Source: Kovacikia minuta CCNUW1 (GTDB taxonomy: Bacteria; Cyanobacteriota; Cyanobacteriia; Leptolyngbyales; Leptolyngbyaceae). From it: a stretch of 64,000 bases of DNA. The notes under the pieces were generated by a model that worked only from the letters and a program-made list of their open reading frames with translations, was not told the origin of the DNA and searched no databases. The stretch spans positions 2,480,001 through 2,544,000 of the forward strand of contig NZ_CP083582.1 of the NCBI RefSeq assembly GCF_020091585.1, read 5' to 3'. Made by a program: the position numbers and the translations under genes. Below are positions 57,839-64,000 of this stretch, piece after piece. How positions within the stretch are numbered: position 1 is the first letter of the stretch; every line of letters begins with the position of its first letter.

Positions 57839-59218
57839 ATGTTAAGCGTTGCACAAGCGGAAAACATCATCCTGGGACTGATTTCTCCCTTGAAGTCAGC
57901 CCACGATGTAGAGATACTGAATTTATTGGTTGCCTTTGATCGCATTCTGGCAGAGCCGGTCATCAGTAATCTGGACTTTCCCCATTGGGATAATTCCGCA
58001 ATGGATGGATACGCCGTTCGCTATGAAGATGTGCAGGCTTGTGCGGGCGATCGTCCCATCACCCTGGAAATTGTGGAGGAAATTCCTGCGGGTTATCAAC
58101 CCCAATGCACCATTCAGCCAGGACAGGCAGCCCGAATTCTGACTGGTTCCGTTATGCCTGCCGGAGCTGACACCATTGTGATTCAGGAGGAAACCCGTCG
58201 GGAAGGGAATCAGGTTGTGATTCTGTCTGCCCCTAAGCCCCAGGCATTCGTGCGCCACCGAGGTGAATTCTATCGGGCGGGTGATGCCCTGTTGCCTGTT
58301 GGAACGCGGCTTAAAGCCCCCGAAATTGCTGTTCTGGCAGCGGCTCAATGTGCCCAGGTAAAAGTTTTCAGACGCCCCCGTGTGGCAATTCTTTCGACGG
58401 GCAGTGAGTTGGTAGATGTAAATCAACCGCTTCAACCGGGTCAAATTGTAGATTCTAACCAGTACGCACTGGCAAGTCTGGTGACTCAGTCAGGTGCTAC
58501 CCCGATTCAATTTGGAATTGTTCCCGATGAACCAGAAGCGCTCAAACGGTCAATGGCAGAAGCGATCGCCGCCGCTGATATTGTCCTCTCCTCAGGGGGT
58601 GTCTCTGTGGGTGACTATGATTATGTGGAAGACATCCTGGCGGAATTGGGTGCAAAAATTCATATTCGAGCAGTAGCCGTAAAGCCAGGAAAGCCGTTGA
58701 CCGTTGCAACTTTTGGAAGCAATAAGACAGAGGGCAGAGGGCAGGAGACAGAAGGCAACGCTCAGCCCTCAGCACTTAGCACTCAACACTTAGTTTCAAT
58801 TCAAAACTTAAAACTCAAAACTCAAAACTCTCTCCTTCCCTCCTCCCCCCTCCCTCCTCCCCATTCCCTCTACTTCGGTCTTCCTGGCAACCCAGTCTCC
58901 GCTCTGGTAACCTTTTGGCGATTTGTGCAGCCCGCCATACGGAAGCTCTCTGGGTTACCAGAACCAGAGTGGAAACCAACGTTTATCCATGCCAAAACGC
59001 GGGTTGAGTTGAGATCGGACGGTAAGCGGGAATCTTATTTATGGGGACAGCTCCACCTGGTTAACGGACAATTCGAATTTGACGTTGCGAAAGGAAGCCA
59101 CAGTTCTGGGAATCTAATTAATCTAGCTGGAACCAGTGGTTTGGCAATTGTCCCAAGCGGGCAAAAGTCAATTGCGGCGGGTGAAACAGTTCAAGTAATG
59201 GCAGTTGGTAATGGGTAA
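57839..59218 (+). CDS. moeA: Molybdopterin molybdotransferase MoeA with in-frame repeat insertion
   Basis: A 459-residue MoeA. 'FPHWDNSAMDGYAVR', 'GQAARILTGSVMPAGADTIVIQEE', 'VAILSTGSELVD' and 'SSGGVSVGDYDYVEDIL' are its conserved blocks. It inserts molybdate into adenylylated molybdopterin. Residues about 296-343 (KTEGRGQETEGN..., SIQNLKLKTQNSLLPSSPLPPP) are translated spacer-type repeat; 'YFGLPGNPVSALVTFWRFVQP' then resumes the domain. Without the insert the length would be the usual about 410. The insertion falls in the loop just before the conserved GLPGNP, so function may survive. Confidence 0.93.
   Translation: MLSVAQAENIILGLISPLKSAHDVEILNLLVAFDRILAEPVISNLDFPHWDNSAMDGYAVRYEDVQACAGDRPITLEIVEEIPAGYQPQCTIQPGQAARILTGSVMPAGADTIVIQEETRREGNQVVILSAPKPQAFVRHRGEFYRAGDALLPVGTRLKAPEIAVLAAAQCAQVKVFRRPRVAILSTGSELVDVNQPLQPGQIVDSNQYALASLVTQSGATPIQFGIVPDEPEALKRSMAEAIAAADIVLSSGGVSVGDYDYVEDILAELGAKIHIRAVAVKPGKPLTVATFGSNKTEGRGQETEGNAQPSALSTQHLVSIQNLKLKTQNSLLPSSPLPPPHSLYFGLPGNPVSALVTFWRFVQPAIRKLSGLPEPEWKPTFIHAKTRVELRSDGKRESYLWGQLHLVNGQFEFDVAKGSHSSGNLINLAGTSGLAIVPSGQKSIAAGETVQVMAVGNG
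58724..58868. repeat. Intergenic-type repeat inside moeA
   Basis: Consists of GGGCAGAGGGCAGGAG, CAAAACTTAAAACTCAAAACTC and CCCTCCTCCC runs, the same families found in nearby spacers. Its length preserves the reading frame. Confidence 0.85.
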
Positions 59219-59348
59219 TTGCGTCATTTGTCGTTTGTCCTTTGTCATTAATGGGTAGAGTTTCAGCGTCTCCCACTCCCCCCTCCCTACTCCCAATTGA
59301 CGGCTGTTCACAGGTTCCCCCATCGCCCCTACCCCCCTTCCTCCTCCC

Positions 59349-60629
59349 ATGATTCAATCGTTTTCTATCATCGTCCCCGTTCTCAACAAAGAGAATGAGA
59401 TTATTCGAACGCTGGAAAGTATTGAGGCGAGTATTGCTTATTTTTATCAGCACCAGGACGCAAGCCATCCCGTAGAAGCAGAGGTGGTGATTGTGAATGA
59501 GGGATCAACCGATCGCACCCTGGAACGTGTCACCCAATTTAGCCAGGACAAGCCCCATTACAAAATCATTAATCATTTCAAAAGTTTAGGCATTGGACCC
59601 GCCAGAAATACAGGCGCAAAGATTGCCAAAGGAGAGATTCTGTTCTTTCCAGATGGGGATGATCTGATTTTCAAAGAACATTTTTATCTCTGTTTCAAGA
59701 TCCTGAATCATCAGCCTGCAACTGCAACAGAAAAATCTTTTGTATTACAAACCGATCGCGGTTCCCTGACTCTCGAATTGCCCAACACATCAGTTGGCAT
59801 TGTGCGAACCGGTGTTCACATGAAAGATCCGCTCCATCCCCATTGGAAATCGGCGATCGAAAATACCATTACCCTTAATTTGTGTGTTCGGCGAGACTGT
59901 CACGAGTTTATGGAAGGCTTTCCCGAAGCCCCCCTTTATAAACAAATTGGCTGCGAAGATATCAGTTATGACCTGTGGATTGATAAGTTTTTCAAAATTT
60001 GCAGAGTCGGGCTGGAAACGGTCGAATATATCCGTTATCCCGGCAATAACTTCGATCGCCAGTTGAAAAAATTTCAAACCCCTCCCGGTCAATTTCAGGA
60101 TGATACACCGCTAGCTGAGCGAGAATTGCATAGCGTTCGTATGAAGCTAGAGCAAGACAAACTGGGCTATCTACTGGATAAATTCAGAAGGATGGAGAAA
60201 ACTCCCGAATTTTTTTCCATTTTGAACTGGCAGAAGTTGGCTCTGGATGCCCTGTCCCAAAACCAATTTTCTGAAACAATCGCCCTGTTTGAGCAAGGGA
60301 TTGCTCTCGAACCAGCGATGCTCAATGCTGTCAAAGATCCATTGGCAGTTGCTTACAACAATCAGGGTTCTGCATTTCGTAAGCAGGGAAACCTGGACCA
60401 GGCAGCGGTTTATTTTAAGAAAGCATTGAACCTGAATCCCAATTTGGTCAAAGCTGACCTTGCCAGAATTTACTTCAATTTGGGGACAGTGCTAAATGCA
60501 CAACATGAGTTTGCACAGGCACTTCCGGTTTTACAAAAATCCCTGGACCTGGAACCCAACTCACCAGAAGCGATCGCAGCATTCAATCAAGTCAAACAAC
60601 AGACCCAAATTCTTAAAGGTAATTTTTGA
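59349..60629 (+). CDS. Family 2 glycosyltransferase with C-terminal TPR repeats
   Basis: A 426-residue protein. The GT-A part (residues 1 to about 240) starts 'FSIIVPVLNKENEIIRTLESIEA', with 'VVIVNEGSTDRT' and 'ARNTGAKIAKGEILFFPDGDD' containing the DxD-like acidic motif. The C-terminal part (about 295-420) has three TPR units, for example 'VAYNNQGSAFRKQGNLDQAAVYFKKALNLNPN'. It would add a sugar to a surface polysaccharide or lipid. A mobile-element end begins 18 bp after its stop codon. Confidence 0.88.
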   Translation: MIQSFSIIVPVLNKENEIIRTLESIEASIAYFYQHQDASHPVEAEVVIVNEGSTDRTLERVTQFSQDKPHYKIINHFKSLGIGPARNTGAKIAKGEILFFPDGDDLIFKEHFYLCFKILNHQPATATEKSFVLQTDRGSLTLELPNTSVGIVRTGVHMKDPLHPHWKSAIENTITLNLCVRRDCHEFMEGFPEAPLYKQIGCEDISYDLWIDKFFKICRVGLETVEYIRYPGNNFDRQLKKFQTPPGQFQDDTPLAERELHSVRMKLEQDKLGYLLDKFRRMEKTPEFFSILNWQKLALDALSQNQFSETIALFEQGIALEPAMLNAVKDPLAVAYNNQGSAFRKQGNLDQAAVYFKKALNLNPNLVKADLARIYFNLGTVLNAQHEFAQALPVLQKSLDLEPNSPEAIAAFNQVKQQTQILKGNF

Positions 60630-60647
60630 AAAGTGTGAAAAGACTCA

Positions 60648-60802
60648 TGTGACTGTAACCATAAGTTGGACAATCATGGAAGCATAAGTTGCACAAATAC
60701 GGCTTCAAAAGCTGATTCTTCGATCCACACGATGAGGTGATTTGGAATTCTCTGAATCATAACTTGAGCAAGAGTCGAAATTTGGGATCATAAGTTGAAC
60801 AA
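60648..60802 (+). mobile_element. Putative Tn7-like transposon end with TnsB-type repeats
   Basis: A TGT-starting end (TGTGACTGTAACCATAAG, 60648) carries four copies of CATAAGTTGNACAA at 60660, 60683, 60758 (CATAACTTGAGCAA) and 60789. Arrays of short TnsB sites at a TGT end are the standard Tn7-like end design, and sequences like AACCATAA-TTGATA occur at ends of type I-F CRISPR-associated transposons. The other end is outside the window, so boundaries and target duplication are unverified. Confidence 0.6.
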
Positions 60803-60807
60803 AATCT

Positions 60808-61115
60808 GTGCGGGGTTAGTCTGGATGTTTTTAGTTACTACGGGGAAGTTCTGAACCCCTTAGGGCGCATAGGTTACAGTCGTCTAACAGGCTCTGCTGA
60901 AAGGAGTAACGCGTACAAGGCGGAGCAAAGTGATACTCTGTCCGGTTGTCGCGGGGACGTTCAGTGTTCAGTTGATTTCTCTTCTAGAAATGACATTTGT
61001 ATTTAGCTGCTGTAGCAAATCTGCTAGACGTATAGTCCGATGGTGCAACTGCTGATCCACAGAGCTAACCTGCATTATTCATGAACCCTTCTGAAAAATG
61101 GCTGAACTGCCCGTC
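60808..61115 (+). other. Structured non-coding stretch, possible 5' fragment of a group II intron
   Basis: Begins GTGCGGGG, matching the GUGYG start of group II introns. It contains blocks such as GGCGCATAGGTTACAGTCG, GAAAGGAGTAACGCGTACAAG, GGGGACGTTCAGTGTTCAG and ATAGTCCGATGGTGCAACTG, which look to me like domain I-III sequence of bacterial group II introns. TAGCAaatcTGCTA and similar small hairpins are present. No domain V or reverse transcriptase follows, so it would be a remnant. Recognition is from memory and unconfirmed. Confidence 0.3.
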
Positions 61116-61135
61116 TAAGAATACTTCTAGCGATT

Positions 61136-61176
61136 TTTCGGTTTTGACAGTGTGTTTTTATACACAAAACCCGAAA
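61136..61176. other. Strong hairpin in the transposon remnant
   Basis: TTTCGGTTTTG pairs with CAAAACCCGAAA (one bulged base) with an inner TGTG/CACA. No T-run clearly follows in either direction. Role unknown. Confidence 0.5.
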
Positions 61177-61320
61177 CGAAACGCGCAGAAGGATCTCAGA
61201 ATTGTCCAAACCTCCGGTGAATAATCCAGGCTAAGTTCGTCGTCAGCAACATGAAGATTGACAGAAGATTGAGCGATCGAGTAAGGATTTTCTCAGAAAG
61301 CAGCCAAACTGGGTGGTTAA

Positions 61321-61676
61321 GAGAAGTCGTTAGCTGGCTTATCAGACGACAATAAGCAGCGTGGTCAAAAATACAAGGAGATTAGGAATGCCTTTCTTGA
61401 TTGCTGCCAATATCAACGGTTCGAGCAGGACCAAATCAAGACAATTCTCGAAAGATGGGACTTCAAGTTTTAGGCTCCTCGCATAAGAAGCTTAATTTGA
61501 AGGAGATTCCAGGCGTTCCTAACCTCCTCTATACCCGCTGTGGAGGGCAGGCTGAACCTTTGTATGAGATGCTACGCCAGATAGCAATTCAAACGTTAGA
61601 TGAACCCAAGCTACAAATCAGTACAGCCACCCTCACAGAGCTATTCACGTCAAAGCGAGTAGCATTAAGCACATAA
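61321..61676 (+). pseudogene. TnsC/TniB-like transposition ATPase, C-terminal remnant with frameshift
   Basis: Frame 1 (61321-61473) reads 'GQKYKEIRNAFLDCCQYQRF' and 'DQIKTILERWDFK'. After a one-base shift near 61465 the next frame continues 'VLGSSHKKLNLKEIPGVPNL', 'LLYTRCGGQAEPLYEMLRQI' and 'AIQTLDEPKLQISTATLTEL' to a stop at 61676. 'G..epL...LR..Ai..L' followed by 'l....L.el' is the helical lid layout found at the C-terminus of TnsC/TniB AAA ATPases, and the gene sits just before tniQ as in Tn7-like elements. The ATPase core with Walker motifs is absent. Confidence 0.5.
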
Positions 61677-61737
61677 ACTCCAGGCTTGCTTTATAGGTCT
61701 ATGCTTTTCTATAACTTGTAGATTTGAAGGGCAAAGC

Positions 61738-62255
61738 ATGTCTGATGAGGCAGACGAAGGATTTGAACTACCACGCTGGTGTCCAGACCCCTTGGAAGGC
61801 GAGAGTATTGCCAGCTATCTCGTGCGTTTCGATCGCAAGAAGTCAGTGCTATGTCTACCATCGGTAGTCTAAGCAGAGCGCTACGACTTGGTACTGCGTT
61901 AGGAAGATGGGAAAAGTTTCGCTTCAATCCGTTTCCTAGCGTTCAAGAAATTGAGCTATTTTGTAACCGTATTGGTCTGGAAGTAGAAAAACTAATGCCA
62001 CCCTTTTTATCTAAAGAACAAAAGATAAAGCTAGAACCGATTCGGTTGTGTGCTTCTTGCTACACTGATGCCCCTTATCGCAGATTAGAGTGGCAGTTTA
62101 AAGCAATAGCAGGCTGTCACAGGCACCAAGTACGTTTGCTTCACAAATGTCCATCTTGTGAGAGACCATTCTCGATTCCGGAATTAATTAACGAAGAGAA
62201 ATGCAAGTGTGGGATGTATTTTTGGCGACTGTCTAGACACCAAAAGCGTTTCTAG
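61738..62255 (+). pseudogene. tniQ: Short TniQ family protein, frameshifted
   Basis: ATG 61738 reads 'ELPRWCPDPLEGESIASYLVRF', then a one-base shift near 61825 moves to the next frame: 'MSTIGSLSRALRLGTALGRW', 'EKFRFNPFPSVQEIELFCNR', 'EPIRLCASCYTDAPYRRLEW', 'CHRHQVRLLHKCPSCERPF' and 'CKCGMYFWRLSRHQKRF'. Rejoined it is about 172 residues, with the N-terminal helix-turn-helix and C-terminal zinc ribbons. The layout and many positions resemble the short TniQ of type V-K CRISPR-associated transposons (about 167 residues). TniQ is the target-selection adaptor of Tn7-like transposition. Confidence 0.85.
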
Positions 62256-62488
62256 AAGAAATTTTTTGTTTGGAAGAATACATTATTTATCCTTCTGATT
62301 GAGTGGCAGTTCATTTTAAGCTGATTTCAGAGTGCGATCGGCACAAGCGCAAACTGCTAATGAAATGCCCAGGCTGTGAGCAGCCATTTCCAGTTCCTTC
62401 GCTTTGGCTAGAAGGAAAATGCCAAAACACAAAGTGCGGCATGCGGTACCCAAGAATGGCAAAGCACCAGAAGTCCCTACTCCATTAA
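62256..62488 (+). pseudogene. tniQ: C-terminal fragment of a second TniQ
   Basis: The frame from about 62303 reads 'KLISECDRHKRKLLMKCPGC', 'EQPFPVPSLWLEGKCQNTKC' and 'GMRYPRMAKHQKSLLH'. A short IEWQF in a neighbouring frame just upstream (62298-62312) shows a further shift. It parallels the end of the preceding tniQ but is clearly divergent in sequence, so it is a remnant of a paralogue rather than a fresh duplication. It keeps the CDRH, CPGC and KCGM zinc ligands. Confidence 0.75.
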
Positions 62489-62586
62489 GGCGTGTAAGGT
62501 TTAATCATTTATTCGCCTATCGTTGACAGACATTCAGACGGCTTTCTTTTCTTAAGAAGGTACGGACGATCGCCCTCTTTCCACTA

Positions 62587-64000
62587 TCACTCTGACTCAA
62601 CAGCCCCCAAAGCAACCAGTGACGCTTTCTGCGCCTCAGTCAGACCTGTAACACCTGTAATGTTCATGCCCTCATAAGGTGCTGGTAAATGCATTGTTTT
62701 CACACAATTAGCAGTTACTATATCCCATAGTTTTATTAGACCATCCCAATCACCGCTAGCAAATAATAATCCATTAGGACTAATGGCAATTGAATCTATG
62801 CTGCTTGTATGAGCATAAAGCGTTCTGATACACTCTCCAGTTTCAGTTTGCCAGAGTCTTATAGTTCTGTCTTGGCTGCCAGTAACCAGTATCAAACCAT
62901 CAGTGCTAAAGGCAATTGATGTAATCCAGTTCGTATGTCCTTGAAGGATTCTAATACATTGTCCTGTTTCGATCTGCCAAACCCTCACTGTCGAGTCAGT
63001 ACCACTGCAACCAGCAAGTAATTGACCATCAGGACTAATGGCAACAGAAATTATCCACTTGGCGGATCCATAAATATTGTTGATGCATTGCCAAGTATTA
63101 ACATTCCAAAGTCTTATTTTGTGGTCTGCACCACTACTTATGAGCATTTGCCCATCAGGACTAAAGCAGAGAGAGTGAACCCGATACTCATGCGCTTGAA
63201 AAGCTTGAATACACTGACCTGTGCTTACCACCCATATTCTTATTGTTTGCTCATTTCCAGCACTCGCAAGTATTTGACCATCAGGGCTAAAAGCAATTGA
63301 CTGTAAAGCATCAGTATGCCCATGAAAGGTTTTAATGCATTGTCCCGTACAAATTTGCCAAAGCTTTACTGTTTGATCATGGCTACCGCTAGCAAGCAGC
63401 TGTCCACAAGGGCTAAACTTAGCTGCTGCAACCCAGTCAATATGACCTTTGAGGGTTCGAGTACATTGTCCCGTACTCACTTCCCAAAGCCTTATTTCTT
63501 CACCGCCGCTACCACTAGCAAGTAACTGCCCACTAGGATTAAAAGCAACTGCCCCTACCATATTTGAATAGCCTTGAATTGCCTTAATACATCGTCCTGT
63601 GCCGACTTGCCAGAGTTTGGCGGTTGAATCCTCACTACCACTGGCTAGAAGTTCTCCATTGGGACTAAAGGCAATTGATGAGACCCAACTAGTATGACCA
63701 GCACAGATCTTCAAACATTTTGCATCACTGACTTGCCAAATTCTTACATTTCGATCCCTACTTCCAGCAGCTAGCAACTGACCATCTGGGCTAAAAGCTG
63801 TTGATAAACCCCAATTAGTACATCCAAGGAAAGTTTGAATACATTCTGCTGTGTTGATCTTCCACAGCTTTACAACATTGTCGTCGCCACTGCTGGCAAG
63901 TAGCTGACCCTTAGGGTGAAATGTGAGTGAACGAACACATCCCTTATGCGCTTGAAAGGACTTGATGGGTTGCCAAGTACCAACTTGCCAGAAGCAGATT
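62587..64000 (-). CDS. WD40-repeat protein, 5' end outside window (likely STAND NTPase-WD40)
   Basis: The open frame runs to the window edge, giving about 470 residues made of ten complete WD40 repeats and part of an eleventh, each about 42 residues with 'GH....V.SIAFSPDGQLLASGS.D.TI.LW...TGQCI'. The C-terminus 'APYEGMNITGVTGLTEAQKA' is a tail I associate with large cyanobacterial NB-ARC/NACHT-WD40 proteins. The domain upstream cannot be seen. High repeat identity indicates recent repeat turnover. It is convergent with the tniQ remnants and may be transposon cargo. Confidence 0.85.
   Translation of the reverse strand, partial: ICFWQVGTWQPIKSFQAHKGCVRSLTFHPKGQLLASSGDDNVVKLWKINTAECIQTFLGCTNWGLSTAFSPDGQLLAAGSRDRNVRIWQVSDAKCLKICAGHTSWVSSIAFSPNGELLASGSEDSTAKLWQVGTGRCIKAIQGYSNMVGAVAFNPSGQLLASGSGGEEIRLWEVSTGQCTRTLKGHIDWVAAAKFSPCGQLLASGSHDQTVKLWQICTGQCIKTFHGHTDALQSIAFSPDGQILASAGNEQTIRIWVVSTGQCIQAFQAHEYRVHSLCFSPDGQMLISSGADHKIRLWNVNTWQCINNIYGSAKWIISVAISPDGQLLAGCSGTDSTVRVWQIETGQCIRILQGHTNWITSIAFSTDGLILVTGSQDRTIRLWQTETGECIRTLYAHTSSIDSIAISPNGLLFASGDWDGLIKLWDIVTANCVKTMHLPAPYEGMNITGVTGLTEAQKASLVALGAVESE

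Follow-up and report, generated by a model that had tools for sequence, protein, structure and literature searches.

A 64.8-kb element in Kovacikia minuta CCNUW1, very probably a type I-D CRISPR-associated Tn7-like transposon, with V-K-type tnsC-tniQ debris inside its left end

Introduction

Passages of PMC11406308 present type I-D CRISPR-associated transposons (CASTs) as very few. McCAST (Tn7575) was described there from Myxacorys californica WJT36-NPBG1. CyCAST (Tn7745), the type I-D CAST of Cyanothece sp. PCC 7425, homes around 30-33 nt downstream of tRNA-Leu according to the parts of PMC10293859 devoted to it. The element reported here is another case of this known, rare kind and is sister to McCAST. 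An I-D Cascade, the TnsAB family, TniQ, TnsD and homing about 30-33 nt downstream of tRNA-Leu are common to it and to CyCAST, as far as those parts of PMC10293859 describe the latter. The same account credits CyCAST with an HD motif predicted to be active and with cas1, cas2 and cas4, whereas here the HD motif is lost and no such genes were seen in the open reading frame (ORF) scan given below. The TnsAB family is also shared with the type I-B2 CAST PmcCAST (Tn7744), from which this element differs in carrying an I-D and not an I-B Cascade.

The window, that is, the whole stretch of DNA that was analysed, comprises 64,000 nt (positions 2,480,001 to 2,544,000) of contig NZ_CP083582.1, called C1 here, from an 8.56-Mb genome in three contigs; its relatives are cyanobacteria. 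Coordinates without a prefix are window positions, and G, C and L numbers are our handles for genomes, contigs and loci (G000 is this genome and G002 that of McCAST). The original prediction, made from the window, read 60648-62488 as the end of one decayed Tn7-like, possibly CRISPR-associated, transposon that might represent an unusual or undescribed branch.

Results

Extension of the sequence past position 64000, which the original prediction had proposed as the way to the opposite end, led to a matching inverted far end at C1:2605474, the absence of which had been named as a finding that would refute the prediction. Because the termini were found at C1:2540648 and C1:2605474, the element measures 64,827 bp. 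The features discussed below are as follows.

C1:2540648-2605474, whole element, 64,827 bp (64.8 kb), both termini; starts at window position 60648 and runs past the window
59349..60629, + strand, truncated host gene (426 aa; glycosyltransferase 2 plus TPR), external to the element
60648..60803, + strand, very probable left end of a type I-D CAST, TGTGAC terminus and four TnsB-type sites
61330..61676, + strand, V-K-type tnsC, C-terminal remnant (Gloeothece V-K TnsC residues 187-298), internal frame change
61747..62255, + strand, V-K-type tniQ, nearly whole (residues 3-163), frameshift near 61848
62264..62488, + strand, diverged second V-K-type tniQ, C-terminal tail, internal stop
62587..64000, - strand, first gene of the cargo, encoding a WD40-repeat protein (1184 aa), continuing to C1:2546141
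C1:2589177-2589527, CRISPR array, five 37-nt repeats
G002:C116:7138-50516 (JAHHHO010000011.1), McCAST, 43.4 kb, 31 nt from tRNA-Leu

A TGT end with four TnsB-like repeats, and an end motif like those of type I systems, had been recognized in the window, and both observations held. The CATAASTTGVRCAA repeats lie at 60660, 60683, 60758 and 60789, and they are the only four matches in the whole window at one mismatch or fewer. The expected number was 0.36 and four were reached in none of 100 shuffles, figures obtained with a pattern composed from these same four sites and hence biased toward them. The bare 9-mer CATAAGTTG is common (33 exact genome copies versus 65 for the reversed control), and the significance rests in the repeat cluster, not in the 9-mer itself. 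TnsB is predicted to bind the four sites. When a terminus-shaped pattern was scanned over 100 kb with up to four mismatches, it picked C1:2540648, upholding position 60648 as the TGT terminus, the far end at 2605455 (terminal base 2605474) and a weak internal site at 2588537. The latter is at chance level, and the identical scan over 80 kb of the sister contig returned three such weak sites. An Rfam scan of window positions 58000-64000 gave no match.

At the far end, a copy of CATAAGTTG lies in inverse orientation at C1:2605454, and 32 nt separate this end from the 3' end of tRNA-Leu. Its terminus, TACAAC, deviates from the TGTGAC/TACGAC of relatives. The terminal site of this end points inward and the next sites are inverted (L015:7430-7475), an arrangement that recurs at the right ends of the named relatives L163, L173, L176-L178, L180, L184, L204 and L207. 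The 5-bp target duplication that had been expected was not found, the flanking sequences being ACTCA at the left and ATACG at the right. Such a duplication marks an undisturbed insertion, not family membership. On the left, the host gene has 426 codons and stops about 20 nt from the terminus; its ten closest relatives have 626-651 open codons, and it is short by about 195 C-terminal residues. A query with the missing part had no match in the genome in a search run without a positive control, and a search for the empty site did not reveal tRNA-Leu beside RNase J or in the host-gene neighbourhoods of relatives.

The tnsAB, tnsC, tniQ and tnsD genes are positioned inside the right end, beside tRNA-Leu. 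Their presence there disposes of the proposal that tnsB had been deleted, since a tnsAB fusion begins 58.6 kb from the left terminus. TnsAB (924 aa) combines a TnsA-like, an rve and a Mu C-terminal domain; it shows 70% identity to the McCAST protein and matches PDB 9bw1, which we take to be a type I-B2 protein (PDB entry title: Integrase), at 1.2e-285. TnsC has a TniB domain, TniQ has 301 aa, and the TnsD-like gene contains one in-frame stop, whereas in McCAST the corresponding frame stays open for 461 codons.

Cascade genes and a CRISPR array had also been named as things to look for beyond the window, and both were found with the tnsAB fusion. Upstream of tnsAB are Cas10d/Csc3 (5.9e-155), Csc2 (1.4e-71) and Csc1 (1.7e-61), all above their NCBIfam cut-offs, together with Cas6, which is above the Pfam cut-off and under that of NCBIfam (53.8 versus 58.65 bits); these are the components of an I-D Cascade. 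In an alignment of 12 Cas10d proteins, taken from 12 of the 17 Cas10d places found in the sample described below, ten read LHDYN at the HD motif, which is FQGYG here and FQNDN in McCAST; the Cas10d of PDB 7sba retains HD. Judged by this loss of the motif, the Cas10d nuclease is probably inactivated, as in the McCAST form. Cas1, Cas2, Cas3 and Cas4 were not among the matches listed in a Pfam scan of 44 of the 45 element ORFs (one of the 44 scanned in part; the left-out ORF overlies the array). Three of the four spacers, the 58-nt first spacer being left aside, had no match among plasmids. The same genome has a second Cas10d-like gene at G000:C2:1094790-1096298, 65% identical over query residues 85-586.

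McCAST, which has been tested in the laboratory, is the closest relative found, and its layout is common to both elements. Identities between the two are 85% for Csc2, 81% for Csc1, 72% for TnsC, 70% for Cas10d, 61% for Cas6, 56% for the C-terminal part of TnsD and 54% for TniQ. They are alike in having tnsAB-tnsC-tniQ-tnsD at the tRNA-Leu end, in the loss of HD and in the spacing of the left end, where the sites lie 12, 35, 110 and 141 nt from the terminus here and 12, 35, 111 and 142 nt in McCAST, and 66 bp are 77% identical. These features match the McCAST form as laid out in passages of PMC11406308. McCAST differs by its length of 43.4 kb, an intact tnsD, a perfect 5-bp direct duplication (CAAGC), an internal end relic and two long arrays of another repeat, whereas the present element, at 64.8 kb, holds additional cargo, lacks a duplication and has its tnsD interrupted by a stop. 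The McCAST relic, a right-type end at G002:C116:44414 with one mismatch to the terminus pattern, lies beside its short I-D array (L080, 44305-44440). McCAST also has a solitary I-D-like repeat between its left end and a TniQ fragment (L080, 49967-50003) that agrees at 29 of 37 positions, with shuffles of the other interval reaching 22 at most; the best candidate in the left-end interval of our element agrees at 18 of 37, which is not above 100 shuffles (mean 19.3).

Inside the left end, the TnsC/TniB-like ATPase tail, the frameshifted short TniQ akin to type V-K and the second TniQ tail that had been predicted were all recognizable. Across two frames (61330-61658), the TnsC tail aligns weakly with residues 187-298 of a V-K TnsC; taken alone, it has no Pfam match and no sound PDB match (E 0.99). 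The first TniQ (61779-62252) reaches 27.7 bits with Pfam TniQ (cut-off 27; E 4.9e-6), and its residues 3-35 are in another frame at 61747-61848. It matches the TniQ of PDB 7n6i at 7.1e-30, while among TniQs of other length classes the best match is at 1.6e-8; we assume that 7n6i, like 7oxd, represents V-K proteins. The second tail (62303-62485) matches V-K TniQ chains at 1.3e-11 to 3.2e-11 although it has no Pfam TniQ match. Unrelated zinc-ribbon families had been named as the finding that would speak against the two TniQ-like pieces. Both match V-K TniQ instead, and for the second tail such families give weak matches only (zf-CCCH_3, its best Pfam match, at 0.0045 and LysW at 0.03). The debris resembles ShCAST and the type V-K element of the Gloeothece verrucosa plasmid Cy782202 in its tnsC-tniQ order and its short TniQ, and differs from a type V-K CAST in having no adjoining tnsB, cas12k or V-K end; neither tnsB nor a V-K end motif was found beside it. 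We read the pieces as what is left of a V-K-type tnsC-tniQ module that came from another transposon and is now dead.

The element's TnsAB and Cas10d were searched in 386 cyanobacterial genomes with an E cut-off of 1e-60 and no more than two scored candidates from each genome. Twenty genomes had TnsAB, 16 had Cas10d and five had both. Among these five, the two are on one contig within 65 kb in G000 and G002, more than 1 Mb apart in G177 and G369, and on separate contigs in G161. An I-D Cas10d within one element with this TnsAB was thus seen in the sample only in this genome and in McCAST, the contigs of G161 being separate. No Cascade genes were found near tnsAB in 49 named loci with up to 10 kb of flank, a search that is uninformative since it also missed the McCAST Cascade, 25 kb off. 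A V-K TniQ occurs within the flank once in the same 49 loci (L199). In a 5.1-kb relative at G018:C8:5682-10780 (L082), two end-like sites enclose a disrupted tnsAB, and a matching 5-bp duplication is lacking.

Discussion

What was directly observed comprises the two ends, tnsAB, tnsC, tniQ, a stop-bearing tnsD, the Cascade genes, the array and the V-K-type debris. Because the core transposition genes are accompanied by an I-D Cascade, an array and the loss of HD, we classify the element as a type I-D CAST with McCAST-form features. The original prediction was right in seeing a Tn7-like, CRISPR-associated transposon end at this place, as the far end with its core genes, I-D Cascade and array attests. 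In our view, 60648-60803 very probably forms the left end of a type I-D CRISPR-associated Tn7-like transposon, 64,827 bp long, with V-K-type tnsC-tniQ debris inside. The flagged stretch contains signals from two elements, the second one dead. The combination is most readily explained as one known kind nested within another; a new branch, as had been suggested, is not demonstrated.

The initial reading joined this end, the tnsC and the tniQ into a single decayed element that had lost tnsB, and the pieces do adjoin the end in tnsC-tniQ order. However, the far end has its own tnsAB-tnsC-tniQ-tnsD of another family and McCAST shows an identical left-end layout, so that the single-element reading is largely ruled out and retains hardly any probability. 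The end belongs to the type I-D CAST, and the tnsC-tniQ pieces are V-K-type debris within it. Where that debris came from is less settled. The best plasmid match of its TniQ (45.5%) is the TniQ of a Gloeothece plasmid, located between a tnsC-like gene and cas12k, and TnsC tail and TniQ jointly match tnsC-tniQ junctions in two sampled genomes, G276 and G177, the second with cas12k-like genes on both sides. These matches to G177 and to the Gloeothece V-K CAST speak against a source in a relative of V-K elements outside the CRISPR-associated ones (tnsB-tnsC-tniQ without cas12k). For such a source speaks the TnsC tail, which is nearer to a Trichormus tnsB-tnsC pair (48.5%, neither tniQ nor cas12k being annotated in the stretch displayed) than to Gloeothece V-K TnsC (31.6%). 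Moreover, no cas12k was found in 18 kb around G276, the best joint match, nor in the element loci L012-L015, and the TnsC tail matched four other genomes, in two of which (G079 and G414) no V-K TniQ adjoins the tnsC concerned. On the other hand, cas12k may lie more than 18 kb off, as it does at about 28 kb in this genome's own V-K set. We regard the non-CRISPR source as a tentative proposal, somewhat on the doubtful side. We use the label V-K-type, and not V-K CAST, because no cas12k or V-K end is nearby, the TnsC tail is nearest to Trichormus, and tnsC genes without V-K TniQ occur in G079 and G414. Derivation from the genome's own V-K element is unlikely, its TniQ being 34% identical.

The two ends themselves could derive from different insertions at one site, fused by deletion or recombination in a stack of at least two elements. 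The flanking 5-mers differ at the two termini and the internal right-type end relic of McCAST points to stacking in this lineage, but a flank deletion alone suffices to account for the host gene breaking off some 20 nt short of the left terminus, and the sole internal site here (C1:2588537) is no better than chance; a fusion thus seems rather unlikely to us. We prefer a deletion of the left flank that ends in the host gene, because this gene is truncated at the left end and ACTCA stands against ATACG, and such a deletion is, somewhat more likely than not, the cause of the missing duplication. McCAST also holds a C-terminal fragment of a V-K TniQ, in the same orientation and 562 nt inside its left end (our debris begins 682 nt inside), and the fragments in both elements may stem from one ancestral insertion or from two separate ones. 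The two TniQ fragments share 33 of 74 residues, fewer than each has in common with other V-K TniQs (47 of 72 and 36 of 61), and a tree does not join them (weak support). When the two left-end intervals were aligned locally, tniQ gave the highest score (49 versus 31 as the best of 200 shuffles), and blastn at 1e-4 returned the end repeats only. That the McCAST lineage had a V-K-type tnsC-tniQ at its left end before the split, as an ancestral hybrid CAST with a pair of target-selection modules (an I-D Cascade-guided one and a V-K-type one, the latter since dead in both), strikes us as quite improbable.

By analogy with McCAST and CyCAST, TnsAB of the type I-D CAST would bind the repeats of both ends. 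TniQ would recruit TnsC on a nuclease-dead I-D Cascade directed by the array of the element, or else TnsD would do so at the tRNA-Leu gene, and TnsAB would then excise and insert the element by cut-and-paste. Because of the in-frame stop in tnsD, homing through TnsD at tRNA-Leu has probably been lost in this copy. With two close relatives to compare, the conserved traits (end layout, tRNA-Leu site, HD loss) can be told from those free to vary.

Stacking of elements seems to occur at these tRNA sites. In three of the 49 named loci (L180, L184 and L207) a terminus TGTACAGTGACTAATTATT lies between tRNA-Val and the right end of a TnsAB-family element, with none in one shuffled 804 kb copy, and similar motifs are beside V-K genes in two of six V-K stretches scanned (L017 and L112). 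The sites at L180:9796, L184:15354 and L207:15124 look as if a second element had landed in the end of the first. The V-K-like termini, together with the debris, suggest that two CRISPR-type transposon kinds meet at shared tRNA sites, and in the present element their physical contact is directly seen.

Other V-K-type genes were encountered in the course of the analysis. This genome's own V-K set (C1:4211-4247 kb; L087, L017) has tnsB, tnsC and a tniQ of another lineage at C1:4240-4245 kb, a V-K-like end near 4246482 and, about 28 kb from the genes, a Cas12k ORF that matches the C-terminal part of the NF038191 profile at 2.4e-96, with insertion-sequence debris between genes and Cas12k. A V-K-type locus in another genome (L084, G411:C1:3989.9-3996.7 kb) includes tnsB, tnsC, a TniQ match to the C-terminal half only and cas12k-like sequence upstream of tnsB. 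Conflict-system genes abound in the cargo at C1:2542587-2578000 (L012, L013). Among its products, six match EAD10 (four above the curated cut-off), several with NACHT and one with a caspase domain, and the region also encodes TIR-EAD9-FHA, nSTAND1 and WD40 proteins and a VWA/MoxR-like pair.
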